Source: a virus. From it: a DNA stretch of 28,235 nt. Below the pieces are notes generated by a model that did no database searches, was not told the DNA's origin, and was given only the letters and a program-made list of their open reading frames with translations. The position numbers and the translations under genes are program-made. Where the stretch lies: the IMG/VR virus record IMGVR_UViG_3300045120_000539, positions 1 through 28,235 of that record; one strand, given 5' to 3'. Shown here piece after piece: positions 180 to 22,288 of the stretch (position 1 is its first letter; every line of letters begins with the position of its first letter).

Positions 180-896
180 GTGGCGAAGGGCGACAAGAGC
201 GCGCAACGAGAACGGCAGGCCGCGCGCAAGAAAGCCGGTGTCGTCCGCCCGAAGTGCGCCAGCCCGAAGACGAACGGCGAGCCCTGCAATTCGTACGCCG
301 TCGAGGGCGGAACGAAGTGCAACAAGCACGGGGGCACGCCGCGCGCCAAGCCTGGCGGGCTGACCTCCAACACCAAGACGGGCCGCCGCTCGCTGCTGTT
401 CCGTCACCTGGCCGACGAGGGCCGGCTCCGGATCGCGATGTTCGAGACGCAGCCCGAGCTGCTCGACCATCGCCAGCCAGTCGCCCTGTCGCGATACATC
501 GTCGACGAGATCTTGATCGAGGTAACGGCGGAGGGCATCCTCAAGCAAGCGCGCCAGATGTTTCCGGGCCTCCGCGAGTATGCTGTCGACGACCCGATGC
601 AGGGATTCGAGGCCGACGAGCTGATGCTCGCGCGCACGGCGATCCTCGAGCGGATGCACCGCGTCATCACCGCGCACGCGGGCAACGTCAACAACGCCGC
701 GAAGGCCGCGAAGCTCGACGAGATGATGCGCATGGGCGCAATGCCGGCGTTCCAGCGCCTCGCCGAGGTGACGCTCCGCCTGGGCGACCGGTACGTGCCG
801 GAAGCGCAGCGAGCGCAGTTCCGCGCTGACTTCAAGATGGCGATCGAGGCCGCTGTCGCCGAGGTCGCGAAGGGCGCTCTCGACGAGGTCCGGTGA
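180..896 (+). CDS. Putative terminase small subunit-like protein with Cys/His cluster
   Basis: A 238-residue protein starting at GTG 180, one base after the preceding stop; the frame is open further upstream, but that part reads as an Arg/Ser/Thr-rich shadow of the partial gene. Residues 1-20 are basic. They are followed by a compact putative zinc site: C26, C36, C47 and H50 in the segment ending CNKHGG. This Cys...Cys...Cys-x-x-His-Gly-Gly pattern is common in phage proteins encoded just before the large terminase. The rest is helical, with a Lys/Arg/Glu-rich middle and an amphipathic C-terminus. Its stop overlaps the TerL start (GTGA). Position and motif suggest the DNA-recognition subunit of the packaging motor; the family assignment is an inference, and a generic HGG zinc protein is the alternative. 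Confidence 0.6.
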   Translation: MAKGDKSAQRERQAARKKAGVVRPKCASPKTNGEPCNSYAVEGGTKCNKHGGTPRAKPGGLTSNTKTGRRSLLFRHLADEGRLRIAMFETQPELLDHRQPVALSRYIVDEILIEVTAEGILKQARQMFPGLREYAVDDPMQGFEADELMLARTAILERMHRVITAHAGNVNNAAKAAKLDEMMRMGAMPAFQRLAEVTLRLGDRYVPEAQRAQFRADFKMAIEAAVAEVAKGALDEVR

Positions 897-2815
897 GCCC
901 ACATCACCTGCGAGCGAACCCCGAGGCGCAGTTCCTCACCGCGGTTCTGGCTGGCATCGCCGGAGCCGGCATCATCGACGTCGGCGGACGGTCGCCGATC
1001 GACCCGATGAAGAGCGGGCTTGAGTTCGTCAATAACTATCGGCTGACCATCGATAACCGGCTGTTCGACTGGGGCCCGCAGGGCTATATGCACCTCGTCG
1101 ACCTGTTCGAGGACGAGCACGACAGCCTCGTTCTGATGGCGGGCGCGCAGACGGGCAAGACCGCGCGCCTGCTCGTGAAGCTGCTCCGGTCCGGCATCGT
1201 TCACTGGGGCGCGCTGTTCGGATATTACTTCCCGGATTATCACCTCCCGAAAGCGTTCTCGCGAGAGCGGTTCGGGCCCTTCGTGCGTTCGAACGAGACT
1301 CTCGCACCGTGGCTCGGTCGGGACGCAATGAAGCGCCGCGGGTCGGACGCGGTGCTCACCCGCAAGTACGGGGCGTCGACGTTCTTCTTCCTGTCGACCG
1401 GCGGCAAGTCGGCGACGGAAGGCCTCCCGATGAAAGGGGTGTTCTTCGACGAGGTCCGTCGAATGGAGAAGTCGGACGTCAGCCGCGCAGAGGAGCGGTA
1501 TTCCGCACAGAAAGACCCGATCGACGTGAAAGTCTCGACGGCGTTCCTGCCGAACCAAGACATTCACATGTACTTCATGCGCGGCGATCAAAGGTACTTT
1601 CACAGCGACTGCAAGTGCGCCGACGGTGTCGTGCTGTCGCTCACGTTCCCGAACTGCATCGCCGACATGGCCGGAACGTCGTCGGAGTTTCAGAGGAAGG
1701 TCGCGCACAAGTTCACGGTCGCCGGGATTCCATACCTGGGCATGGGCGAGCGCGAGCGCGCGCAGTACGGCGACGCCGTGTACGTCTGCCCGAAGTGCGG
1801 CGAGATCATCGTCAATCCGCGCGCGGGCTGGTGGCACCCGCACAATGAGGCGGCGTACACGCACAGCTATCAGATGCCGCAGCTCCTGACGCCGTCATAC
1901 CCGGCCGCGCGCGCGTGGCAAAAGTTCTTCCGACCTACCGAAGTCGTCGACCTGCAGTACATCTGGAACGACATGGTCGGGCTGCCCTACATCGACGAGA
2001 ACGCGCAGCCGGTGACGATGGATCACCTCATGGCCTCGGTCAATCCCGAGCTGTTCTGGCCCATCCACAAGGGCGAGCGATGGATGCGCGAGAACCTCAT
2101 CAACTGCGCGATGGGTGTCGACGTCCAGCAGGGGTACAACGTCGTCGTGATCAAGCAGCTCGCCGAGAACGGCAAGTTCCGCACGATCCACACCGAGATC
2201 GTTCATGGCGAGGATCCGTTCGCCGGCACCGCGAAGCTGATGCAGATGTTCAACGTCCGCGTCTGCGTCATGGACGCGCAACCCGAGTACAACGAGGCGT
2301 TTCGGTTCGCGAAGACGCTCGAGGGCCGCGTCTGGCTCGCCTACTACGTCGAGGGCGAGCGGACCGAGCTTGTCGACTGGAAAGACCGGCCGAAGCACAA
2401 GGCCGGGCAGAAGGGCGAGCAAACGCGGCACAAGCACACGGTCGTCATCTCGCGCACGAAGGGCCTGCGCTGGAGTCTCGACCGGTGGACGCGCGGGCTG
2501 AACGAGGTGCCACCGTCGCACCAGCTCATCCAGCGGCTGCCGCGCCAGGGCGGGCACGTCATCCTGTCGTCGGGCCTCCGCATCGGGCAATGGGAGGCCG
2601 TGCCGATCGTGCAGGTGCTCTACTTCATGCACCAGACGCGCGTGGGGTTCATCCCGCAGGAGGTCGCGAAGGGCGAGGACGTCAAGATCGGCGCGCGCGA
2701 GATCCGCGCCGAACACCTGGGCGGCGTCGATCCGCACTTCGCGCACGCCGAGCTGTACTGCAACCTCGCGCTGGCCCGCATCGGAACTGGCCCGGCGCAT
2801 CCGCGTCAAATCTGA
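893..2815 (+). CDS. terL: Phage terminase large subunit, GpA-like
   Basis: A 640-residue protein starting at GTG 893, overlapping the previous stop by four bases. It has the architecture of lambda GpA-type large terminases, which use ATP to pump DNA into the prohead and cut the concatemer. Visible motifs are a Walker A-like GAQTGKT at residues 84-90, a Walker B VFFDEV at 183-188 (D186, E187), a later Cys-pair zinc-knuckle segment YVCPKCGEI, and the start of the nuclease domain at a GVDVQ motif near residue 409 (the usual acidic metal-binding position in GpA nucleases). The length matches the GpA family (about 600-650). The portal gene follows after one small gene, as expected. Confident call; the headful or cos mode of packaging cannot be read from it. 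Confidence 0.93.
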   Translation: MSPHHLRANPEAQFLTAVLAGIAGAGIIDVGGRSPIDPMKSGLEFVNNYRLTIDNRLFDWGPQGYMHLVDLFEDEHDSLVLMAGAQTGKTARLLVKLLRSGIVHWGALFGYYFPDYHLPKAFSRERFGPFVRSNETLAPWLGRDAMKRRGSDAVLTRKYGASTFFFLSTGGKSATEGLPMKGVFFDEVRRMEKSDVSRAEERYSAQKDPIDVKVSTAFLPNQDIHMYFMRGDQRYFHSDCKCADGVVLSLTFPNCIADMAGTSSEFQRKVAHKFTVAGIPYLGMGERERAQYGDAVYVCPKCGEIIVNPRAGWWHPHNEAAYTHSYQMPQLLTPSYPAARAWQKFFRPTEVVDLQYIWNDMVGLPYIDENAQPVTMDHLMASVNPELFWPIHKGERWMRENLINCAMGVDVQQGYNVVVIKQLAENGKFRTIHTEIVHGEDPFAGTAKLMQMFNVRVCVMDAQPEYNEAFRFAKTLEGRVWLAYYVEGERTELVDWKDRPKHKAGQKGEQTRHKHTVVISRTKGLRWSLDRWTRGLNEVPPSHQLIQRLPRQGGHVILSSGLRIGQWEAVPIVQVLYFMHQTRVGFIPQEVAKGEDVKIGAREIRAEHLGGVDPHFAHAELYCNLALARIGTGPAHPRQI

Positions 2816-2836: not shown

Positions 2837-3271
2837 ATGAACCTCGGACCGTCGTCGACGCGGCGACTCAACGAGATGCTCGGCGTTCCGAGCGAACAGG
2901 ACGTCAAGCGTCGACCGCCGCAGTCGATGGGCCCGACGCTGATCATCGTGTCCGAGCCGATGCGAGTCGCAGAGGACGTCGTCAAGAACCTCTACGATCC
3001 CGAGGGTGCGGGGAAGCCGCCGCCGAACGGCTGGCTGCAGCGCCAGCGTCGTCGAGGTCTGCTCGCCGGCGCCGGTGTCGAGGATGCGGGGGCACGGCTT
3101 TCGAAGCCTCAAGCCGAGATCAACGGCCGCGCGTGCTGCATGGTGCTGATCGGACAGCTCGACCGACAGCTCGCGATGCTGCAGCTTCCGTCGACGCACA
3201 CCTGCTCGACGTGCGGTACGGTGTACCGGATCGAGATGCGGGTTCGGGAGGCGCGCGACCATGGCAGGTAG
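2837..3271 (+). CDS. Hypothetical protein between terminase and portal, C-terminal CxxC
   Basis: A 144-residue protein with ATG 2837 preceded by GGCGGAG. It is not a family I recognise. The first 80 residues are Pro/Arg-rich with a short hydrophobic stretch (TLIIVSEP), and the C-terminal third contains CSTCGTVYRIEM, a single CxxC that could be half of a zinc ribbon. A pair of cysteines (ACCMVLIG) lies about 30 residues earlier and could complete a site. The stop at 3269-3271 lies inside the portal gene (11-base overlap), which implies translational coupling. Small genes in this position in phages can encode head-tail joining proteins or packaging accessories, but nothing here proves either. 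Confidence 0.7.
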   Translation: MNLGPSSTRRLNEMLGVPSEQDVKRRPPQSMGPTLIIVSEPMRVAEDVVKNLYDPEGAGKPPPNGWLQRQRRRGLLAGAGVEDAGARLSKPQAEINGRACCMVLIGQLDRQLAMLQLPSTHTCSTCGTVYRIEMRVREARDHGR

Positions 3272-5315
3272 ACGAGCCGCTCCGGCCGGAGCCATCGAGA
3301 GCCAGCGGGACCAGGTCGTCGCGCACCCGGCCGCCGGGAGCGCGCCCGAGTTCCGGTCGACCGACCCGTCGACGGCACCGCCGACGCCGACGCGCGCCGA
3401 GGGCGTCAAGTCGCCCGTGTTTGAGCTCCACGACGCTCCGACAAAGGGCGTCGTGCAGCTCGCCGACGGTGGGCTCAAGATCGGGGCCGATGTCGTCAAG
3501 ACGCTCCGCGACCGGGCGATTCGCGAGACGACGACGACCCGCGTGCCGTCGACCCCGCGGTACATGTTCCGCGACGGCGGAGGTGTCGGCGTAAAAAAAG
3601 GCGCGTCGCGCTGGGACGTGCTGCAGATCGAGACGCTGCGCAACATCCGCGAACAGTCGCCTTTGCTCAACGCGATTCACTCGGCGCGCCATCACCAGAT
3701 CAAGCGCCTGTCGCAGCAGTGGAACGGCCGGCGCGGCGAGGTCGGCTGGCGAGTCGTCCACAAGGATCACCTCGAGCACGACAGCAAGCCGCCCGACATG
3801 ATCGAGCCGTACATCCGGACCTTCACGGAGATGCTCCGGAAGCCGTCGCCGCGGTACTGCCCGACGACCGCGCAGCTCATGGGCCAGCTCGAGGAGGACT
3901 ACCTCACCATCAACCGGCCCGTGGTCGAGAAGCTGTACAGCGACCTCGATCCGACGCTCGTGGTGGGCTTCCGCGCCGTCGACGGCGGTCTGATCTGGCC
4001 GACGATGCGGTTCCTCGAGCGTTGGACGCAGGACAATCCGCGCTGGACGCTGGGTTACGAGCGGACGAAGCTCACCGGCGACGACGTGCTCGCCATCCTG
4101 TCCGACAAGCTCGGTCACGACCTGCACACGGCCGAATACTGCCTCGTGCGCGAGGGCGTGCTCGAGGCCGTCTACGAGCCGCACCGCCTGATCGTCGCGC
4201 CGGACATGAACCGGACCGACATCCGGTACGCCGGCTGGCCTCCGTCGTACGTCGAGCAAGCCGCGGAGATCGTGCTCGGGTTCCTCAACACCTGGGAATA
4301 CAACTCGTCTTTTTTCACGCGCGGCATGATGGCCGAGATCATCATCGGCGTCACCGGCAACATCAACGACGAGGACATCGACGCGTTTGTCGACATGCTC
4401 CGCGCGGCGACGCAGGGGCACGGGAAGGCCTGGCAGCCGCCGGTCATGCCGCTCCCGCAGGACGGGGCGATCACCGCGATCCCGCTCAAGACGAACAACA
4501 AAGAGATGGGATTCGAGACGTGGCTGTCGCTCATGATCTCGCTGACGTGCGGCGTTTATCGCATGGATCCGACGGTAATCAATGCGAAGCCCTGGGACGG
4601 TGGACAGGGCGGCGGATTGTCCGCGCCGAACCGTGAGAAGGAGATCGCGCTCGCGAAGGAGGAAGGCCTCCAGAGCGACTTTGCGCACCTGAAATGCGGC
4701 ATGCTCGACGTGCTCGCCGCCGAGGTGCACCCGGATCTGCGCGTGATCGCCGAATATGGCGACTTCGACCCGATGAAGGAAGCGCAGATCTACGAGATCC
4801 GCTCCAAGTGCGAGATGACGCGGAACGAGGTGCGTCTCGCGCAGGGCATGGAACCGCAGGGGTTCTGGCTCGCGCCCGACCAGTACAAGGTGGCCACGCC
4901 AGAACAGAAGGCCGCGCACGACGAGAATCAGTGGAACATGCCGGCCGACCCAGCGTTTGCGAACGCGCTGAACCAGTCGCGCATGCAGAAGATGATGGCC
5001 GCGCAGGGCCAGCAGCCGGGCGCCGACGGGTTCGGTGGACAGCAGCCAGGCGCGGCCGATGGCGATGGGTTCGGCCAGCCGAAAGAGAAGACGCCGTTCG
5101 GCGCGCCGCCGGCACCTGGCGGAGGCGCTCCAGGAGGTGCCGCGCCGTCCGGTGCTGCTCCGAAGCCGCCGGCACCAGGGGCGATGCCACTGCCGGCGCC
5201 GAAGCCCTTGCCGGCCGGCAACACCCGGCCGACCCCGTCCGCGTCCTTGCAGAAGGCGGACGGACAGCGCACGATCACGATCGTCGTAGCGACGGAGCCC
5301 GACCCCCATGCCTGA
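3261..5315 (+). CDS. Phage portal protein
   Basis: A 684-residue protein; ATG 3261 lies just inside the end of the preceding gene. The N-terminal 80 residues are Pro/Ala-rich and disordered. The body (about 110-560) reads as a portal: helices for the clip and wing, a central segment SSFFTRGMMAEIIIGVTG, then a mixed region ending in a C-terminal helix with KCEMTRNEVRLAQGMEP, a pattern typical of HK97/Mu-type portals where residues after the crown discuss MTxNEVR. The last 130 residues are a Gly/Pro/Ala/Gln-rich tail. Portals form the dodecameric DNA channel at one capsid vertex. Position (after TerL, before the Mu-F protein) and length agree. The next gene starts eight bases before the stop. 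Confidence 0.85.
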   Translation: MAGRRAAPAGAIESQRDQVVAHPAAGSAPEFRSTDPSTAPPTPTRAEGVKSPVFELHDAPTKGVVQLADGGLKIGADVVKTLRDRAIRETTTTRVPSTPRYMFRDGGGVGVKKGASRWDVLQIETLRNIREQSPLLNAIHSARHHQIKRLSQQWNGRRGEVGWRVVHKDHLEHDSKPPDMIEPYIRTFTEMLRKPSPRYCPTTAQLMGQLEEDYLTINRPVVEKLYSDLDPTLVVGFRAVDGGLIWPTMRFLERWTQDNPRWTLGYERTKLTGDDVLAILSDKLGHDLHTAEYCLVREGVLEAVYEPHRLIVAPDMNRTDIRYAGWPPSYVEQAAEIVLGFLNTWEYNSSFFTRGMMAEIIIGVTGNINDEDIDAFVDMLRAATQGHGKAWQPPVMPLPQDGAITAIPLKTNNKEMGFETWLSLMISLTCGVYRMDPTVINAKPWDGGQGGGLSAPNREKEIALAKEEGLQSDFAHLKCGMLDVLAAEVHPDLRVIAEYGDFDPMKEAQIYEIRSKCEMTRNEVRLAQGMEPQGFWLAPDQYKVATPEQKAAHDENQWNMPADPAFANALNQSRMQKMMAAQGQQPGADGFGGQQPGAADGDGFGQPKEKTPFGAPPAPGGGAPGGAAPSGAAPKPPAPGAMPLPAPKPLPAGNTRPTPSASLQKADGQRTITIVVATEPDPHA

Positions 5316-5753
5316 TCCCCTCGAGCCGACGAACCCGTTCGACCCCAAGACGGGCCCGCCGAGCGCCGCGCAGCGCTACAACGGCGCGTCCGCGCAGGCC
5401 TGGAAGTGCTGGCAGTCGGGCATCGTCGCCGACCAGGAGGCGCCGACCGACATCAACGGCTATCTGCGCAGCAACAACGCCAAGTCCAACATCGTGCGCT
5501 GGACGGTGTTCCGTCCCGACGACACGCCGGGCTGCGTCCTGCACGTGGGGCGCTTGGTGCTCACCACGCTCAAGGATCCGGCGAACACCGTGCTCGGGAT
5601 GTGGGTCGAGGAAGGCGCCTATCCGATGCAGCCGGGCTCGCCCGCGATCATCGACCAGTACATCGACGGCGACCCAGTCGGCGCGTACATCGACGGCATC
5701 CTCGGAACGCCGGCCGACCCGGGGTACGCGCTCCTGTTCAAGCAGTCGGCGCG

Positions 5754-5757
<4 letters not shown>
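5308..5757 (+). CDS. Hypothetical phage protein in head cluster
   Basis: A 149-residue acidic protein whose ATG 5308 overlaps the portal stop by eight bases (ATGCCTGA). The sequence is a mixture of short beta-like segments (LHVGRLVLTTLKD) and Gly/Pro/Asp loops, with one pair of separated cysteines and no signal peptide or membrane helix. Third codon positions are strongly G/C, which supports coding. It is followed by a four-base ATGA overlap with the membrane protein gene. The location and coupling suggest a head or head-tail-connection protein, but no motif identifies it. Confidence 0.75.
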
Positions 5758-6076
<319 letters not shown>

Positions 6077-6080
<4 letters not shown>

Positions 6081-6754
6081 TCTGTTCGCGTCCAGACGAC
6101 GGAAGCCTCGGACCGGTACTGTTGCGCCGCAAGCTCGTTCTGCCCGGCTCGATCGACTGGATGCCGGACCGGCCCATCTGCACCGTCGTCCGGCGCTGGC
6201 CCGGGGGCTCGCAGGCGACCGTCGGCGGGCTCACCGCTGCGTACCGACCCGACGACCTGGTCGCGTTCGAATGGCGCGACAGCGTCGACGGCAAGATCTG
6301 GGAGATCTACTCGCGCTGCACCGCGGATCCGGGCATCGACCCTGGACATCGCGAGGGGATCGTCTGCCCGGGGTTCTACCCTCGCGTACTGGCGCGCGGA
6401 CCGATGCACAAGGGCACGAAGTACGAGCAGGATTGCTGGGTTCCGAGCGGTCAGCCGAATACCGGCTTCCGGTACTGGCTCACGACCGACCGGGGCGCCG
6501 TCACCGATACGATGCCGATCTACCTGGCGACGCCGGCGACGAGCATCTGCATGCACGTCGGATACGGACCGCAGGTCGGCAACAACTCCGACGCATGCCT
6601 CGTGTGGTTCAACGCCGAGGGCACGGCGCCTGCAGAGTTCGCGGCCGCTCGCGCGGCGTTCGATGCGATGGTCGCGCGGGGCGGCTCGCCGTTCCTCGAC
6701 GTCGGGCTGATCGAGGTGCCCAACGGCGACGACCTATTCCGACTCGCCGCATAG
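6077..6754 (+). CDS. Hypothetical phage protein, 225 residues
   Basis: GTG 6077 is chosen because it makes the GTGA four-base overlap typical of this genome and has GGAGGG five to eleven bases before it; the earlier part of the open frame is an Asp/Thr-repeat shadow of the upstream gene. The protein is globular, rich in aromatic residues and cysteines (about six), with segments such as VAFEWRDSVDGKIWEIYSR and a C-terminal VGLIEVPNGDDLFRLAA. There is no membrane segment or signal peptide. It sits between a membrane protein and another unknown gene in the head region. I do not recognise the family; a virion or tail-completion protein is possible. Confidence 0.72.
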
Positions 6755-6764
6755 GAGTAGCGTT

Positions 6765-7256
6765 ATGGCGTGGACACCAGCAGCAGAGATGACCGACCTC
6801 GAGCGTGAGGCCGGTCGGGCCTGTCGAGACGAATTGCTCGCCGTCCTTCCCGGCTTGCGCTTTGGCCTGGTGGGCATCGAGCGCTACGAAGAGGGCCGGA
6901 CGCTTCTGGTCGCCGCACAGCTCGACAACACGGCGATTCTCGTGCGCAGTTACGAGGGCGGTCCATATAGGTCCAACGTACGCGTGGTCATCAACGGCCA
7001 GGAGATCGGAGGCTCTTCGAGCGTCTCGAGCGCAGCGACCTTCCTACGGAACTATCTGGAGAGACTCCGGGCGCGTCTCGATTCCGCGCTGTCGACGGCG
7101 CCATCGAATCGACAGAGCTTCGATGAGGCCGCCGGACGGATGCTGACCGCGCACAACGAAACCGAGAAGGGGCTCCAGAAATGTCGCTGCGGGGCGACGA
7201 TACGACCCGATGGTCGCTGCCCGACCGCACTCGCGAGCGGACTCAATCTGGTATAG
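6765..7256 (+). CDS. Hypothetical protein with C-terminal Cys cluster
   Basis: A 163-residue protein with ATG 6765 and AGGAG about eleven bases upstream. The N-terminal two thirds look like an alpha/beta fold (LLAVLPGLRFGLVGIERYEE, LLVAAQLDNTAILVRSYEG, VRVVINGQEIGG), followed by a helix and then a short tail with CRCGATIRPDGRCP. This tail is a three-cysteine knuckle that may bind zinc or be a degenerate rubredoxin-type loop. It ends at TAG 7254-7256, and the next gene begins 17 bases on. No family recognised. Confidence 0.7.
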   Translation: MAWTPAAEMTDLEREAGRACRDELLAVLPGLRFGLVGIERYEEGRTLLVAAQLDNTAILVRSYEGGPYRSNVRVVINGQEIGGSSSVSSAATFLRNYLERLRARLDSALSTAPSNRQSFDEAAGRMLTAHNETEKGLQKCRCGATIRPDGRCPTALASGLNLV

Positions 7257-7273
7257 TGGCGCCGGAGGTTCCC

Positions 7274-7540
7274 ATGATTCGACTGTTCCTGGTTTCCGCC
7301 TGTCTCCTCGCCGCGACGTTCGGGTTCGGCGGACCGTCGCCCGCATGGGCCGAGGACGCGTTCCCGGTGCACGCCGCCGTCGCACCGACCTTCGCGCTCG
7401 ACTTCACCCCGATCTACGCATCCGAGCCCGTCGCGCCGCCCGTGCAGGCCACGGTCGACGCCCTGACCGTCTGCCCGGTCGTCGCGCCGACGGTTCCCGT
7501 GCGGCACTTCGTTCGCGGCTCGGCGCGCTATAGCTGCTGA
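7274..7540 (+). CDS. Small exported protein with Sec-type signal peptide
   Basis: An 88-residue protein. ATG 7274 is chosen because GGAGG lies just upstream and the N-terminus then forms a classical signal peptide: MIR, hydrophobic core LFLVSACLLAATFGFGG, and an AWA-ED cleavage site near residue 26. The mature part is about 60 residues, Pro/Val/Ala-rich, with two cysteines including the penultimate-type C-terminus RYSC. A lipobox-like VSAC exists but is too close to the N-terminus to be convincing. An exported protein within a head-gene block is unusual. It could act at the envelope (superinfection exclusion, spanin-like or moron function), but this is not shown by sequence. Confidence 0.65.
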   Translation: MIRLFLVSACLLAATFGFGGPSPAWAEDAFPVHAAVAPTFALDFTPIYASEPVAPPVQATVDALTVCPVVAPTVPVRHFVRGSARYSC

Positions 7541-7575
7541 CGGGAGCGCGTCGAAGTCGAGCGAGGAGCAGCGTC

Positions 7576-8826
7576 ATGGACAGAGGCGATCCGCTCGACT
7601 TCTTCGACTTTCCGCCTGAAATGGTCGCGATGATGAAGGCCTACCGCGCGCGCCAGGCTCTCACCACGCACGCGCCGGCACCGGCCGATGACGGCCGCCT
7701 GCACGTGAAGCTCGTCGGGCTCGAGCACGTCGAACCTTGCGACCATCCGACGCTGCTCGCCGCGATCGGACTGCATCTCGGGCTCGAGCCGATGACGAAG
7801 GCCGTCCAGCACGAGGACGAAGGGCCCGACCCGCGGTTCCCGAAGCTCGCGCGCCTCGTCGAGCTGGCGCAGGCCGACTGGCACACCTGGATCGACCAGC
7901 TCGTCGAGGCCGTCGCCGAGCTGGCGGCCGCGGGGAAGCTCTCGCCGCTGAACGAGGAGAACGAGAACGTGCTCCGCGCGCTGTTCGCGGACCACGAGGC
8001 GGCGCTCGTCCTGCGTTTCACCGGACGCGGCGACGCGCTCACCGTCCAGCGTCTCGTGGACGCCGGGCTCGTTCATCCAAGCGTCGCCAGCCGCGCCTGG
8101 ATCCCGACGGCGTACAAGCTCGGCGCGGCCGTCAGCGCGCTCCGCGTGCACCCCGACGACCAGCCGCCGAGCCGCGCCACCATCGAGCAACTGCTCGCCA
8201 CCGTGGAGCCGATCAGGCTCACCCAGCAGCAGCGCCGCGCGTCGGAGGCCGTCGCTCGCCGGGGCGAGATCTACATGCGTCGCCCGGCGATGCAACTCAC
8301 CAACGGCATCTGGCAGCGGATCGCCGAGAATGAGCGGATGTGGAACCCCGCCGAGCTGCAGCAGCTCCGCGACACGACCGCGAAGGCCGTCGAGCAACGG
8401 AAGGGGGCGAAGGAGCTGGCTCGCGACCTGCGCGACGTGGTGAACGGCAACCCGTCGATGCAGAACGACATGGACCGCGTCGCCCGCACGGAACTGTGTC
8501 TCGCCCACGGGGCGGCCGCCTATTCGACGCTCAAGCAGCAGGCCTCGCAGATCGGCATGGACGATCCGCTCGTCTGCAAGCTCGTGTCGCCGCGCGCGTG
8601 TACCGACTGCAAACGGATCTGGGGCCTTCCGAGCGACCCTATCCCGTACCGTCTGTCGTTCATCGAGGCGCGTGAGGCCGCCGGCGGCAACTTCCGACTG
8701 CCGCATGCGAGCTGGGGACCGGTCGTCGGTCCGGTACATCCGAATTGCACCGAGGGCGCGCTCTTGCTGTACGATCCACGATTCGTGAAGGGTGCGAACG
8801 CGAACGCCGCGCGCGTCAAACCGTAG
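7576..8826 (+). CDS. Phage minor head protein, Mu gpF / SPP1 gp7-like
   Basis: A 416-residue protein; ATG 7576 with GAGGAG upstream. The N-terminal 250 residues are largely helical. The C-terminal part carries the signature of the Mu F family of head morphogenesis proteins: an RVARTEL...AHG helix near residues 300-310, a CTDC pair at 342-345, and VVGPVHPNC ending at C391 (H388, C391), a likely metal site conserved in the family. Family members sit on or near the portal inside the capsid and are often co-ejected with DNA; in many phages the C-terminus is replaced by toxin or polyvalent domains, but here it ends about 25 residues after the HPNC motif, so it is the short form. Order portal - MuF supports the call. 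Confidence 0.88.
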   Translation: MDRGDPLDFFDFPPEMVAMMKAYRARQALTTHAPAPADDGRLHVKLVGLEHVEPCDHPTLLAAIGLHLGLEPMTKAVQHEDEGPDPRFPKLARLVELAQADWHTWIDQLVEAVAELAAAGKLSPLNEENENVLRALFADHEAALVLRFTGRGDALTVQRLVDAGLVHPSVASRAWIPTAYKLGAAVSALRVHPDDQPPSRATIEQLLATVEPIRLTQQQRRASEAVARRGEIYMRRPAMQLTNGIWQRIAENERMWNPAELQQLRDTTAKAVEQRKGAKELARDLRDVVNGNPSMQNDMDRVARTELCLAHGAAAYSTLKQQASQIGMDDPLVCKLVSPRACTDCKRIWGLPSDPIPYRLSFIEAREAAGGNFRLPHASWGPVVGPVHPNCTEGALLLYDPRFVKGANANAARVKP

Positions 8827-8845
8827 AACAGCGTCAGGAGGACAG

Positions 8846-9730
8846 ATGAACCTCGAAGAGTTCAAGAGTGCGATCACGTGGGAGAAGGGCGCCGTCGAAT
8901 GGCCAGGGGCTACCGGGCTCTGGGGCCAGCTCATCGGAACCGTGCGGTTCGCGAGCGTTCTCTCGCAGGTCGACCGCGAGCTGACGATCACGCTCCAGGA
9001 GGTACCGACCGTCGAAGGTGTCAACAACTTCGATCCCAACGCGCCGACCGTTCGTCGCTGGTTCTGGTGGTATGAGGCGCCCGGGCTGATCGATGGGAGG
9101 TACAGTTCGGAGAACGAAAAACCGTACGTCGAATCCGCTGATGCAGAGGTCGTGGCCATCGAATCCGCGTTCAAGCGGCTCAACGAGGCATGGAACCTTG
9201 ACGGCACCGCGGCCAGCACGTCGAGCAATTTCGGACAGTTCTCGGCTCCGAATCGTCGTCCAAACTATGCGATGGGTGAAAGCGACGACAAGTCGCAATA
9301 TCTGAATCCGCCCGGCGAGGTGATTCCCGGCTCGGTTCCGGCGAACGACATGATTCCGCGCCGCAATCGGCTCGACCTGATGACGGCCGCCGAACTGTCG
9401 ATCCGGTCGTCGATGCTGGTAGTCGAAACGCTCGGCTGCGACGAGCGCCTCACCGAGGCCGTCTGCCTGCTCGACCGCGCCCGTGAACTGGTCGCCGACG
9501 TCGTCGACGACCCGCTCCGCAAGGTCGGCGGACCCGCCATCATCACGGGGAAGGTCGAGGATAAGGACGTCGATACGTTCGTCGATGAGCTTCGGAAGGC
9601 CCATACGTTCTCGTGGCAGGACGGCACGAAGTTCGAAGAGACGACGCCGATGCTCTGCGACTTCACGCACCCGCATCCGGCTCACCCGTGCGGCCGTCGA
9701 GTCGAGAGCGACGCACCGCCGCGCGCGTAG
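8846..9730 (+). CDS. Hypothetical structural-region protein, 294 residues
   Basis: ATG 8846 is chosen over earlier in-frame codons because AGGAGG precedes it by five bases and the previous gene ends at 8826. The N-terminal half contains beta-rich, Trp-rich segments (RRWFWWYEAPGLIDGRY); the C-terminal half is helical, with a VETLGCDERLTEAVCLLD segment and a final Cys/His stretch (MLCDFTHPHPAHPC) that could bind metal. It is acidic overall and lacks signal or membrane segments. I do not recognise a family. Position downstream of the Mu-F gene would allow a scaffold or connector role, but no protease or capsid motif is visible. Confidence 0.72.
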   Translation: MNLEEFKSAITWEKGAVEWPGATGLWGQLIGTVRFASVLSQVDRELTITLQEVPTVEGVNNFDPNAPTVRRWFWWYEAPGLIDGRYSSENEKPYVESADAEVVAIESAFKRLNEAWNLDGTAASTSSNFGQFSAPNRRPNYAMGESDDKSQYLNPPGEVIPGSVPANDMIPRRNRLDLMTAAELSIRSSMLVVETLGCDERLTEAVCLLDRARELVADVVDDPLRKVGGPAIITGKVEDKDVDTFVDELRKAHTFSWQDGTKFEETTPMLCDFTHPHPAHPCGRRVESDAPPRA

Positions 9731-10413: not shown

Positions 10414-11460
10414 ATGTCGTTTGCCGCGCTTTCGAAGAAGCTGCTCGACCTTCTCAACGGCAAGAGCGCGGGTTCGCCCATCGTTCCGCTCGACATGGCG
10501 AAAGAGGCGGGTCTGGGCGACCGACTCGACTTCGTCGGGCTGCTCTCGCGCACCGGCGGCGATGCGCTTCCGGCAGCGTCGTTCATCTCGACGAAGGCCG
10601 GCGCGGCCGTGCTCGAGGCCGGCAACGCGCTCGCGCTCACCCAGACGGACAACGTCGCCACGGGCGTCGGTGGCTCCGTCAACGTCGACAACCTGTCCGG
10701 GCTCACCGCCGGCCAGCGCTTCACGATTCGGCTCGCCGACGCGAGCAAGAACATCGTGCTCCGCAACCACGGCGGCGGGACCGGCAACATCCGCACCCCG
10801 GGCGCGACCGACATCACGCTCGACGTGGTGACCGATACCGTCGGCGGGTTCCTGAACGACGCCGGGCTGTACATCATCGACACGATGAGCGTCGCCGCGT
10901 TGCTCCCGGCGAACCTGTCGACCGCGCTCGCCAGCAACGCGAACGGCCAGGGCGCCAGCCTCATCGGGCTCGAGGATCCGCTCGGCTACGTCGTCGGCAC
11001 GACGGGCGAGGCGGGCATCGTCGAGGTCGCCACCGTCACCAGCGACGTCGCCGGCGCCGTCGACGGACTCCACGCGGTCAAGGTCGCTCACGCGACCTTC
11101 GATCCGTCGGCGAATTCCGGTCACCGCACCATCGGTGCGCACACCCTCGGCGTCACCATCCCGGCGAAGGGCATCGTCAAGCGCGCCTACTACCAGGTCG
11201 TCACCACCTGCGCGGACGGGGCCTCGGACAACGCCACGCTCGCCATCTCGGTCGAGGGCGCGAACGACATCGTGACGGCGATCGCCATCTCCGACGTGAC
11301 GAATGTCTGGGATGCCGGGTTCCACGATGCGAAGCCCGACGGCACGGCCGCGCACTTCGTTCAGGCGTCCGTCGCGCGCCTCGTCACCGTCACCGTCGCC
11401 GTCCACGAGCTCACCGCCGGCAAGGTGATCGTGTTCCTCGAATACGTCATGGGCCTGTAG
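10414..11460 (+). CDS. Virion structural/appendage protein
   Basis: A 348-residue protein; ATG 10414 with AGGAGG eight bases before. The N-terminal 40 residues are helical. Residues about 70-155 form a beta-sandwich-like region (LTAGQRFTIRLADASKNIVL, NIRTPGATDITLDV) resembling phage fibre or adhesin pieces. The C-terminal third has the pattern GVTIPAKGIVKRAYYQVVTT ... NVWDAGFHD ... LTAGKVIVFLEYV. I recognise this as a domain repeatedly seen in predicted virion proteins of environmental and marine phages, with unknown exact function. Its separation by an upstream terminator and probable own promoter would suit a highly expressed structural protein. It could be a head fibre or decoration protein; it does not look like an HK97 major capsid protein. 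Confidence 0.75.
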   Translation: MSFAALSKKLLDLLNGKSAGSPIVPLDMAKEAGLGDRLDFVGLLSRTGGDALPAASFISTKAGAAVLEAGNALALTQTDNVATGVGGSVNVDNLSGLTAGQRFTIRLADASKNIVLRNHGGGTGNIRTPGATDITLDVVTDTVGGFLNDAGLYIIDTMSVAALLPANLSTALASNANGQGASLIGLEDPLGYVVGTTGEAGIVEVATVTSDVAGAVDGLHAVKVAHATFDPSANSGHRTIGAHTLGVTIPAKGIVKRAYYQVVTTCADGASDNATLAISVEGANDIVTAIAISDVTNVWDAGFHDAKPDGTAAHFVQASVARLVTVTVAVHELTAGKVIVFLEYVMGL

Positions 11461-12339: not shown

Positions 12340-15300
12340 TTGCTGCTCATGATTCGCCGATGGCTGCAGGTGCCGCTCGAGAAGGGGCGACAGCTCGGCA
12401 TGTTCGCGCTCCCGGCGATCGGCGGATCGACGAACGTGCGCACCCACGTCCGTCGTGGGCCGAACGGCCTGGAGATCGTCCAGCAGCACGAACGACACGA
12501 GCACCGTGCCACCGTGCCACCGCCGGCGACGACCGACACGCCAACGACTGCGACGGGGGATGGCGAGTCGCCGATCGTCGAGTCGACGGCGACGATCGAG
12601 ATCCCGATGCCGAGCGCGTCGCTCGTCGCGCCGCCGACCGAGCACGCGACGACGAGTACGCCGCCGGCCGGTGTCGTCCAGCCGACCGCCTTCGACGAGG
12701 AGACACCAGCGGGCCCGGTGTCGCCCGAGTCGACGCAGGGAGCTCCCACGGCTCACACGCCGCCCGGTGCGACCGACACCTCGTCGACCGCATCGGGCAA
12801 CACCGTCGACGAGCGGATCACGCCGGCGACGTCAGCGGGCAGGCCCGCGAAGATCGTCGACGAGATCCCGGAGAAGCAGCTCGACACCGCGACGCGCACG
12901 GTCCACGTGGACAACCTCGAGCTGGTCCGCGCGAAGGCGAAGGCGCTCGGACTCGAGATCGAGGAACTGCCCGTCTCCGCCGATTCGGTGCTGTCGACCC
13001 TATCTCCGGCCGGCTGGGACGACGTCAACAACGTCGGGATCTACTCCGCGAAGCAGGAGGAGTGGGCGAAGAAGCACGCGGAGAAGCTCCGGCACATCCT
13101 CATCAAGGCGCCGAAGCACACCGAGCGCATCGTCGGAATCGCGAAGCTGGCCGACGGGCCAGGGGGCGAAGAATCGATCTTCTCCAACGTCCGCACGAGC
13201 AAGGATGACCCGGTTTATTTCGACAAGACGCGGGTATCTAACTTCGACTTCAAGCACTGCGATGAGTGTGGTCGGAAGATTCAGCGCGGGCTGTCGTTCA
13301 TCGTCCGCGACAAGGATGGGCATCACACGCAGATCGGCGGGCAGTGTGCGGCGAACCTGAACCTCGCGCAGAAGCTCAAGAATCAGCTCGACGCGTTCGA
13401 GGAGCTGACGGCGTTCGTCCGCGACCGCGAAAACAGCGGCATGCGCGACGATACGCGGTTCTCGCCGGCGCGGATGCTGGCCGGAATCGAATGGTCGCGT
13501 CGAAAGTACGGCTACATCACCGGACAAGCCGCAGAACGCATGGGCCATGAAGGGCGGTCGACCGCCGGGCATGCGATGGGCACGCTCAACGCGATCGACA
13601 TGGCCCGGTCGGGCAAGGTGCAACTCGGCGCCGAGGAGAAGCGCGCGCTCCGCGAGGCGGACGCCGCAATCTCGAAGATCGAGGAACACCAGGGCGAGCA
13701 GCTCCACGCGGACGTGATCAAGATCGGACAGGAGGCGTTCGACAAGCTCGCCGACGGACAAGATGCGACGTTCGCCCACAACCTCAAGACGGCGACGAAG
13801 GGCGCGCGCGAGAAGCATGCCGGGCTCCTGGCGTTCGCGCTGCACAAGCGCGCGCAGAAGATCGAGGACGAACTGTCGGCATCGCGCCCGCGCCAGGACT
13901 ACACGCCGGAGCCGGCGAGCGAGAAGCTCAAGGCCGAGCCGCCCGCACAGCTCGCCGCGAAGCTCGGCGTCGAGCCGCGCGCGATCGAGAAGGCGCTCAC
14001 GACGGGCAAGCTACCCAAGACGCTCGAGAACAAGCTCGAGCGGTACCTGCCGGGCACCTGGCGCGTCCTGAACCATCGCACCAGCGAGGGAAACTACGGA
14101 ACGACGCACCATTACGACCTGCAGCGCTTGAGCGACGGCTCGGTCGTGCACTGGTCGTCGGGCACGCCGGCGTACAGCGACGTGCACCCGCGCTGGAAGT
14201 TCTCGCCGCACGCCGGTCGCGACAAGGTGCTCGACGACCTCGGCAACGTCTCGAAAGAGGGCGAGGGCCACGACGAGGTGCACTGGGCGGCGACGCCGCA
14301 CGTCGGCGAGCACCTCGAGATCCACGGCGCGCAGGTCGACGAGAAGCCCGGCGAGAAGGTCGAGCGGGGCGGCCGCACGTACCACAACGCCCGGAAGATC
14401 AACCGCGTCACCGCGAAGCGCGTCGAGGGCCCGACCGAAGATCCGGCAGAGACGCCGGCACCGCTTGAGCCGGCCGTCCACTTCGGAAGTGCGGCGTACC
14501 TCAACCGCCCGGGAGAGCGCCGCGCAGCCGTGGACAAGCTGCTCGCGGAGAAGCCGCCGGAGCCGGGCGACGAGCCAGCATGGGCGCAGAACCGAGACTT
14601 CGCCGCGCCGCCCGAATGGCTCGCGTGGAGCAAGCGAGTCGGCGAGCAAAAGCAGCACGTCAACGCGCTGCGCTCGCATTACGTCGACGAGAATGGTACG
14701 CCGGAGCCGGGCTATGGCTGGGAGGGTGCTGACGTGCGACCGACCGACAAACCCGAGCATGTGCATCCGCGCGACCGTCACCTGCTGCCGATGACGAAGG
14801 GCGTCCGACGCCCGATCGCCGCGATCGAACTGGGTCCGAACGGGCCCGTGCTGGTGCCGATGATCAAGGCCGAGCTGACGACGCACGGTCGAAACCAGAT
14901 CGCCGCGCACAACTTCGCGCTTTCTGGCGGTCGATACCCGATCCACGACGAGGCGCACGCGCGCAATGCGCTCGCTCGAGTCGCACAGTTCGGCACGGCC
15001 GAGGAGCAGGCCGAGGTACGCGCTGCCGTGCGCGCGAAGTACCCTGGAATCGACGTCTCCGGGTCGGGCGAGACGCAGGCTCTCGAGAAGGCGTTCGGCT
15101 CGATGCCGCGTCCGCAGGGGCCGCCGCCGATGGTCACCGGCGTCCGTCCGCCGGCCGATCGCGTCCAGTACCGTCACCCCGGCTCCGGCGAGATCCGGTC
15201 GGGAAAGGTGCAGGCCGGTGGCGAGCAGGGCATCTCGCTCGTCGACGAACAGGACGGAACGCTCCAGCGCGTGCCGCACGGGCACTACGTCGTGCATCCG

Positions 15301-16077
15301 GACGAGGACAAGGGCGGACCGCCGCTGGCGCCGGGAAAGGGCAAGCCAGGCACCGAGCGCCCGACTCCCGAGGAGGGTACCGCCAACGCAGCGACGAAGG
15401 CCGACGCCGATTCGAAGTTCGCGCGGCTCAAGCACACCGCCGAGCAGCTCCCGGCGCACCGTGCGCAGGCGCACAAGGAGATGCGTCTCGGGCCCGACTC
15501 GCACGTCGCGCACAAGGCCGCCGCTGCATTGTTGGCCGCGCACACTGGCCGTCCGGCGCACGACCTCAAGTCGTCGCAGCTCGACACCGAGGGCGACAAG
15601 GTGAAGGTGCGTCGCACGCCCGACCAGCAGGACGAGGTCAAGGACAAGCACCTCGCCGCGTTCGTCGGCGCGTCGAAGAAGGGCCGGAAGCCTGACGATC
15701 CCGCGTTCGGCGGGAAGGATTCGCAGGGCAACATCAAGCCCGTCAAGGAGAGCGACGTCGCCGATCACCTCGCCGCGCACGGCGACGGGATGACGCCCGA
15801 GGACGTCAGTCGCTACCACACCACGCGCGAAGCCGCCGAAGCGAAGGGCAAGCCGCCAGCCGGTCGACCGCCCGAGCACGTCGATCCGAAGGTCGCCGCC
15901 GCGATGAAGGACCACAACGTCAAGATGCCCGACAAGCCGGCCGACGCCGTCGACGGCGACAAGCGCGACGACCGCGAACGCAAGTTCGGGGCTATGCTGG
16001 ATTCGACCGAAGAAGCCGATCCGACGGGCGCGCGCGCGTTGCCCGAGGGAGCGGACGAGGACGGGGACAACACGTGA
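12340..16077 (+). CDS. Giant multidomain (polyvalent-type) protein: zinc finger, OB-like and degenerate topoisomerase-IB-like domains
   Basis: A 1245-residue protein. TTG 12340 is preferred over ATG 12349 because AGGAG (12329-12333) ends six bases before it. Domains in order: shared tag module (about 10-55); Thr/Pro-rich linker to about 165; a zinc segment with C307, C310 and C336 (HCDECGRKI ... GGQCAANL), followed by a helical segment with RKYGYITG; an OB-like part about 575-690 (YGTTHHYDLQRLSDGSVVHW, later GEHLEIHG); a GRYPIHDEAHARNALARV module at about 864-907, known from many phage proteins; a linker; and a C-terminal region (about 1040-1200) resembling topoisomerase IB, with its tyrosine position occupied by H1180 (PPEHVDPKV). 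The zinc-plus-OB pair is recurrent in phage/plasmid multidomain proteins. Likely a virion-carried or early-acting DNA-associated protein. No catalytic site is certain. Confidence 0.75.
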   Translation: MLLMIRRWLQVPLEKGRQLGMFALPAIGGSTNVRTHVRRGPNGLEIVQQHERHEHRATVPPPATTDTPTTATGDGESPIVESTATIEIPMPSASLVAPPTEHATTSTPPAGVVQPTAFDEETPAGPVSPESTQGAPTAHTPPGATDTSSTASGNTVDERITPATSAGRPAKIVDEIPEKQLDTATRTVHVDNLELVRAKAKALGLEIEELPVSADSVLSTLSPAGWDDVNNVGIYSAKQEEWAKKHAEKLRHILIKAPKHTERIVGIAKLADGPGGEESIFSNVRTSKDDPVYFDKTRVSNFDFKHCDECGRKIQRGLSFIVRDKDGHHTQIGGQCAANLNLAQKLKNQLDAFEELTAFVRDRENSGMRDDTRFSPARMLAGIEWSRRKYGYITGQAAERMGHEGRSTAGHAMGTLNAIDMARSGKVQLGAEEKRALREADAAISKIEEHQGEQLHADVIKIGQEAFDKLADGQDATFAHNLKTATKGAREKHAGLLAFALHKRAQKIEDELSASRPRQDYTPEPASEKLKAEPPAQLAAKLGVEPRAIEKALTTGKLPKTLENKLERYLPGTWRVLNHRTSEGNYGTTHHYDLQRLSDGSVVHWSSGTPAYSDVHPRWKFSPHAGRDKVLDDLGNVSKEGEGHDEVHWAATPHVGEHLEIHGAQVDEKPGEKVERGGRTYHNARKINRVTAKRVEGPTEDPAETPAPLEPAVHFGSAAYLNRPGERRAAVDKLLAEKPPEPGDEPAWAQNRDFAAPPEWLAWSKRVGEQKQHVNALRSHYVDENGTPEPGYGWEGADVRPTDKPEHVHPRDRHLLPMTKGVRRPIAAIELGPNGPVLVPMIKAELTTHGRNQIAAHNFALSGGRYPIHDEAHARNALARVAQFGTAEEQAEVRAAVRAKYPGIDVSGSGETQALEKAFGSMPRPQGPPPMVTGVRPPADRVQYRHPGSGEIRSGKVQAGGEQGISLVDEQDGTLQRVPHGHYVVHPDEDKGGPPLAPGKGKPGTERPTPEEGTANAATKADADSKFARLKHTAEQLPAHRAQAHKEMRLGPDSHVAHKAAAALLAAHTGRPAHDLKSSQLDTEGDKVKVRRTPDQQDEVKDKHLAAFVGASKKGRKPDDPAFGGKDSQGNIKPVKESDVADHLAAHGDGMTPEDVSRYHTTREAAEAKGKPPAGRPPEHVDPKVAAAMKDHNVKMPDKPADAVDGDKRDDRERKFGAMLDSTEEADPTGARALPEGADEDGDNT

Positions 16078-16442
16078 GCACCGACACCGGACCCGCGATG
16101 GCAGCAGGAGCCCGACCGCCCGAAGCTCAATGGTCGTTCGGCTCCTACGTGTTCGAGTACCGCAAGGGCGGGCCGAAGGGAATCGGCATTCTCACGGTGA
16201 AAGGGAAGAAGGTCGGCGCGCTCGCCTTTCACATGGTCGCGGGCACGATGGCCGGCGCGAGAAAGATGGCCGGCGACGCGATGAACGCGTTCGAGCAGGG
16301 CAAGATTCCCGATGAGGGCGTGTTCCGCATGGAGGCGCTCGCCAAGTCGTCGCCCGAGACGATCGCCGCGCTGATTCGCGGCGAACGCGCTCCGTCGTCA
16401 CTCCGGTTCGTCATCCGGAAGCGGATCCAGGTCACGCGGTAG
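16074..16442 (+). CDS. Hypothetical small basic protein
   Basis: A 122-residue protein; GTG 16074 overlaps the stop of the giant gene (GTGA), so translation is probably coupled. It has a beta-like start (WSFGSYVFEYRKGG, GIGILTVKGKKVGALAF) and helical middle (GTMAGARKMAGDAMNAFEQG), ending with a basic tail (RFVIRKRIQVTR). No motif is recognised. Its last 45 bases overlap, in convergent orientation, the end of the minus-strand gene 16398-16796; no terminator hairpin lies between them. Confidence 0.68.
   Translation: MSTDTGPAMAAGARPPEAQWSFGSYVFEYRKGGPKGIGILTVKGKKVGALAFHMVAGTMAGARKMAGDAMNAFEQGKIPDEGVFRMEALAKSSPETIAALIRGERAPSSLRFVIRKRIQVTR

Positions 16443-20218: not shown

Positions 20219-22288
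<2,070 letters not shown>

Follow-up and report, generated by a model that had tools for sequence, protein, structure and literature searches.

Genes and domains at the locus

We analyzed positions 1 to 28,235 of the IMG/VR virus record IMGVR_UViG_3300045120_000539, a stretch of 28,235 bases referred to here as the window. Its G+C content is 67.6%, and the head-order genes all lie on the plus strand. Our subject is the C-terminal domain of a 1245-residue multidomain protein, a degenerate type IB topoisomerase (TopoIB) domain. As an initial annotation made from the sequence had proposed, this domain is fused behind zinc-knuckle and beta modules, and its gene stands in a phage structural cluster. 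Related contigs, L018 and L119 among them, were gathered by alignment of the terminase; L120 and L146 are also used below.

12340..16077, plus strand: gene of the 1245-residue multidomain protein (open reading frame list; codon-position G+C 0.70/0.48/0.87; homologue at L146 5112-8891, E 1.2e-70)
15157..15294, plus strand: small Tudor/SH3-like beta barrel, residues 940-985, ending VPHGHYV, directly 5' of the TopoIB-like domain and kept in L018, L119, L120 and L146
15385..16023, plus strand: degenerate TopoIB domain, residues 1016-1228, then a disordered acidic tail (profiles, intact relatives, predicted fold)

The start codon of the gene is probably the ATG at 12349, as judged from the homologous start MVLRFIPLEKAHQLGLF in L146.

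Homology to type IB topoisomerases

By sequence, residues about 1016-1228 are homologous to type IB topoisomerases. The last 245 residues of the protein score 15.9 bits against a Hidden Markov Model (HMM) of eight plasmid-borne bacterial TopoIBs, for which the best of 2000 shuffles reached 3.6 bits, and 35.6 bits with a profile of three intact phage relatives (best of 5000 shuffles, 10.8). Among the 225 frames of 60 or more codons in the window, this gene is the top scorer and no other frame comes close. The initial annotation had suggested comparing the region with TopoIB and tyrosine-recombinase profiles. In hhalign, a profile of the three dead members described below matched the bacterial TopoIBs alone with an E-value of 1.5e-10 and all intact enzymes with 3.1e-17. 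The proposed likeness is thus real, given the profile scores against shuffles, the intact orthologues that occupy this slot in relatives, and the predicted fold. The peptides quoted in its favor (MRLGPDSHVAHKAAAALLAA, GGKDSQGNIKPVKESDVADH, TPEDVSRYHTTREAAEA and PPEHVDPKV) are where they were said to be, with H1180 and E1154 correctly numbered, and the location given (residues 1040-1200) was right, with a true span that is slightly wider.

Standard libraries did not detect the domain. Pfam, PHROGs and NCBIfam profiles gave no TopoIB match to the window protein, and a whole-record search with PF01028 and a bacterial alignment (A1) did not match the window, the domain having degenerated too far to pass those filters. 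No relative emerged from single-sequence IMG/VR scans whose queries were the domain, residues 271-520 and a 348-residue gene at 10414, and a search of plasmids with the domain gave only matches at E 3 or worse. Three further hits were judged to be chance: a tblastn match to Annihilus (E 0.07), which is antisense to annotated gene 16, a ClpE match among PDB sequences (E 0.38) and a Cas5d match in Pfam (E 0.043).

Intact relatives occupy the same gene slot

The C-terminal part of the window protein aligns to a plain TopoIB both in L018 and in L119 (from the 72.7 kb contig of L022/L119), recognized by the A1 profile at E-values of 5.4e-48 and 3.8e-40 and by Pfam Topoisom_I at 1.7e-28 and 6.4e-25, respectively. 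Both carry the terminase, portal and MuF genes of the window, and the gene slot is common to all three: MuF, a homologue of g11, the TopoIB-like gene and a homologue of g16. The relatives also have the Tudor/SH3-like stretch (VQYRHPxSG...HGHYV) before the TopoIB domain, and in L119 a zinc-knuckle part as well. The intact phage TopoIBs of L018, L119 and L120 are 20-28% identical to the window domain and retain all catalytic residues. A search of 50,697 phage records with the intact L018 TopoIB gave 0 matches, and TopoIBs of this type are therefore rare among sequenced phages.

A neighboring 1049-residue protein in L021 (13391-16540) and L119 (2161-5310) repeats the HGHY Tudor/SH3-like end. Read by eye, its sequence shows an R-S-E-like pattern that hints at an ADP-ribosyltransferase.

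Loss of the active site

All nine phage enzymes compared have intact catalytic columns: the IRxG arginine (Arg1), the GK/AK lysine, the DFRTFH arginine (Arg2), a histidine or asparagine, and the YI(D/N)P tyrosine. Four of these five elements are absent from the window domain, from L146 and from the protein at L120 4772-5632, and the window domain also lacks Arg2. Since two of the three dead members still have the Arg2 residue, the losses were not all simultaneous. The sites in the window are as follows.

15535..15564, plus strand: site of the Arg1 deletion (IRAGN...GITT in relatives; alignments, column table)
15610..15630, plus strand: shortened beta-hairpin that lacks the GKAG turn, which carries the Lys in relatives (alignments, column table)
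15808..15810, plus strand: Ser1157 at the catalytic Arg2 position (KDFRTFH to EDVSRYH), with Arg1158 adjacent (column table)
15877..15879, plus strand: H1180, the earlier candidate for the lost tyrosine, with ambiguous alignment (BLASTP versus MAFFT, hmmalign and hhalign)

The His/Asn segment is altered and its position is not conserved. The window protein lacks about 75-95 residues upstream of the C-terminal tail, its YIDP segment is either gone or altered, and it has no tyrosine C-terminal of Y1159. The initial annotation had taken H1180 as the replacement of the catalytic tyrosine. The tyrosine is indeed absent, but the equivalence of H1180 is insecure: a local BLASTP piece of 16.5 bits pairs HVDPKV with YIDPKV, placing H1180 at the tyrosine, whereas MAFFT, hmmalign and hhalign place it in the helix preceding the lost tyrosine segment. 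The reading of MRLGPDS as the catalytic IRxG arginine motif was mistaken, as these residues align with the loop LGLGGAS of L018 and the IRxG motif is deleted. Because the deletions are common to three contigs, we rejected the idea that a frameshift or an assembly fault accounts for the missing residues. At the level of sequence, cutting and rejoining of DNA by the TopoIB mechanism is demonstrably impossible for the window domain, and relaxation of DNA by it is not expected.

The dead form is conserved

A domain reduced by the same deletions occurs in the 286-residue protein at L120 4772-5632 (34% identity) and at the C-terminus of the 1260-residue L146 protein, 5112-8891 (38% identity). In the tree, the three dead forms make up one clade (support 100/100), nearest to the enzymes of L018, L119 and L120; branches are long, the window row having 1.75 changes per column. 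No fourth member turned up when IMG/VR was scanned with these three. We compared the codons of the window and L120 over the TopoIB part only. Codon positions 1/2/3 match at 0.52/0.57/0.46, against 0.33/0.28/0.38 expected from composition; positions 1 and 2 are thus conserved against position 3, which argues for constraint at the protein level. The frame of the domain is open, with coding G+C of 0.73/0.45/0.90. These comparisons show the dead domain to be maintained by purifying selection in at least three phages. The phage with L120, G028, encodes both the dead copy and, about 1.4 kb downstream, an intact TopoIB fused to an InPase domain; the dead copy is therefore not the sole topoisomerase of that phage.

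Predicted fold

We predicted the structure with AlphaFold2 from a 12-row alignment that included intact TopoIBs. The core of the model (about residues 1015-1165) has predicted local distance difference test (pLDDT) values mostly of 84-96. In a fold search of the PDB, a check that the initial annotation had also proposed, ranks 1-17 were all TopoIB (best E 4.8e-6), ahead of XerA at E 0.17. The bacterial structure 3m4a superposes on the predicted core at 3.5 A over 192 columns. For the intact L018 relative (pLDDT 85), 3m4a ranked first with E 9.5e-16. The window domain is thus predicted to keep part of the TopoIB core fold. The tyrosine recombinases XerA and XerD belong to the same catalytic fold superfamily, but their structural match is far weaker than that of TopoIB, and a tyrosine recombinase or integrase identity is not borne out.

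The core elements of bacterial TopoIB (PF01028; PDB 2f4q/3m4a) occur in the same order over about 180 residues. By comparison with the bacterial enzyme, the window domain is missing the N-terminal lobe, the segments with Arg1 and Lys, and the C-terminal part with the His/Asn and the tyrosine. It comprises about 215 residues inside a 1245-residue protein, against about 390 in an intact phage relative.

Other domains of the protein and neighboring genes

The remaining features of the protein and the neighboring genes are listed below.

893..2815, plus strand: terminase large subunit (phrog_675, E 6.8e-58), the query for finding relatives
3261-5315, plus strand: portal (phrog_2662, E 1.5e-15)
7576..8826, plus strand: MuF-like head protein of the same cluster (phrog_2468, E 1.6e-4), with homologues in relatives
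13246..13878, plus strand: zinc-knuckle-like stretch (CDECG...GGQC) and the helical part after it, residues 303-513 (phrog_2319, E 4.4e-10)
14869..15039, plus strand: phrog_16160-like stretch YPIHDEAHARNALARV, residues 844-900 (E 1.3e-11)
16074..16442, plus strand: next gene (g16), 122 residues, with homologues likewise 3' of the TopoIB-like gene in L018, L119 and L146
18969-19799: Mom-like DNA modification protein (phrog_1384, E 1e-20), between the 1245-residue protein gene and the InPase gene
20219..22288, plus strand: polyvalent-type gene with an InPase domain (PF18823, E 1.7e-34), whose L120 homologue is fused to an intact TopoIB

The Cys pattern of residues 303-513 suggests zinc binding, and this part is colinear in the relative P0003 (phrog_2319, E 1.4e-48) and in L119. 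The YPIHDEAHARNALARV stretch is common to hypothetical proteins of the Streptomyces phages Frankenweenie, JustBecause and Kela. For the putative OB module of the initial annotation, residues 520-700 gave no homologue by phmmer. The Tudor/SH3-like barrel is modeled at a pLDDT of about 70-90, and its fold matches in the PDB are Tudor domains. An anti-restriction role is possible for the Mom-like protein. A JAMM-like HNHPSSGPLSPQD motif at 21491-21529, in the second half of the InPase protein, is Pfam-negative and may belong to a JAB-type metallopeptidase part.

TopoIB in other phage proteins and known systems

Intact TopoIBs occur in other long phage chains. The 1066-residue protein at L124 5577-8774 joins a portal (Phage_portal, 1.5e-61), a MuF (2.6e-13) and an intact TopoIB (5.5e-27) in one chain. 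The L124 gene is also present in L125, L126 and L127, and L128 and L129 are near-copies; none was counted as independent. We know of no report of a portal-MuF-TopoIB fusion. The InPase fusion of L120 lies at 7002-9089. At L121 5817-8669, a 951-residue chain has a HELGH metallopeptidase-like region, with a weak, sub-threshold Pfam match (0.0037), and an intact TopoIB at its end.

Jumbo-phage topoisomerases and phage polyvalent proteins are among the closest known systems. The jumbo phages PaBG, Lu11 and RSL1 encode a topoisomerase I with a tyrosine-recombinase-type catalytic domain (PMC7824862). It is likewise a phage-specific enzyme of the same superfamily, and that of PaBG came fourth in our viral fold search; it is, however, reported as a DNA-processing gene, and neither as part of a head-cluster protein nor as dead (PMC7824862). 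The phage polyvalent proteins (Iyer et al. 2017, PMC5512222) resemble the window protein as long multidomain proteins beside MuF, portal and InPase genes. The window protein is multidomain in the same sense, with zinc-knuckle-like, phrog_16160-like, Tudor/SH3-like and TopoIB-like parts and MuF, portal and InPase neighbors. Pfam detects none of the catalogued polyvalent-protein domains in the 1245-residue chain itself, the InPase domain being in a neighboring gene. In a word search of PMC5512222, "topoisomerase" occurs once, in a reference title, and tyrosine recombinase is absent. In the open-access literature, we found no paper that brings together MuF, portal, effector, topoisomerase and phage and, with the terms tried, no report of a natural catalysis-free TopoIB domain kept by selection.

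Interpretation of the dead domain

We consider it probable that the domain is a conserved pseudo-topoisomerase that serves as a non-catalytic module of a virion-cluster protein. The ancestor of this phage group would have had a working TopoIB catalytic domain inside such a protein; all five catalytic elements would then have been lost in the window lineage, with a shortened core fold retained. The dead domain and the Tudor/SH3-like barrel may form a non-catalytic binding or structural module of the multidomain protein, which, to judge from the place of its gene, may be packaged inside the head or synthesized together with it, and perhaps accompanies the genome on delivery. The intact counterpart in the relatives probably relieves torsion in phage DNA as it comes in or replicates. 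Several points weigh against this reading. Only three members of the dead form were found, from one contig each, and the C-terminal 75 residues were modeled at low confidence. As the AlphaFold alignment included intact TopoIBs, the fold match and the homology are not independent evidence, and both the virion location and the binding are putative. The net charge of the dead domains (+2, 0 and -4, against +4, +15 and +9 for the corresponding region of intact domains) argues against a strong grip on DNA and weakens a DNA-binding role.

The alternatives differ in how much of this evidence they explain. The resemblance could be an accident of a low-complexity stretch rich in Ala, Asp and Lys, as the failure of library profiles to match the protein might suggest; this is hardly credible, since shuffles of the same composition score far lower and the orthologues in the same slot are clear TopoIBs. 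The initial annotation called the domain a probable relic. It is a dead enzyme, but the term undersells a clade of three phages under purifying selection. In its strict form, with the remains of the enzyme a C-terminal tail drifting until deleted, this explanation is unlikely: the large deletions, the long branches and the poorly ordered C-terminus would fit it, whereas the deletions shared by three phages of one clade, the conservation of codon positions 1 and 2 against 3, the open frame and the coding G+C all speak against it. We think it similarly improbable that the dead domain pairs or competes with an active InPase-TopoIB of the same phage. G028 encodes both, yet no intact TopoIB was found in the window record or in that of L146, both of which are fragments, and TopoIB usually works as a monomer.

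A more serious possibility, though a somewhat doubtful one, is that the dead domain holds or bridges DNA of the phage or the host. The secondary DNA-binding surface of TopoIB works without catalysis, and the human TOP1 Y723F mutant still lowers RNA (PMC10576097), which provides a precedent in a dead enzyme. The core beta/helix scaffold is kept here, as is the Arg2 residue in two of the three members, but basicity is low, and the strands and helices that supply the Arg1 and Lys contacts have been lost. A non-catalytic module could work through DNA binding, among other ways, and the alternatives would partly overlap with the pseudo-topoisomerase reading that we favor; we rate a structural or protein-binding role no less likely than DNA binding.

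What is new here is that a multidomain phage protein contains a conserved pseudo-topoisomerase IB; the fold itself is known. The initial annotation had expected a new arrangement; the combination of zinc/OB and TopoIB parts is partly the layout of relatives, the zinc-knuckle part being colinear in L119. Dead domains of this kind are missed by standard profile libraries and annotation. With close to even confidence, we propose a wider scenario, in which a virion-delivered, torsion-relieving TopoIB encoded in the head cluster was turned, in one lineage, into a conserved pseudo-topoisomerase that took on a new, non-catalytic function within the head or early in infection. In the intact relatives, TopoIB belongs to the phage head gene cluster, in one case within a portal-MuF-TopoIB chain, a sign that some phages may carry a swivel enzyme in the particle. 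If true, a particle-borne TopoIB would connect genome ejection with DNA topology.
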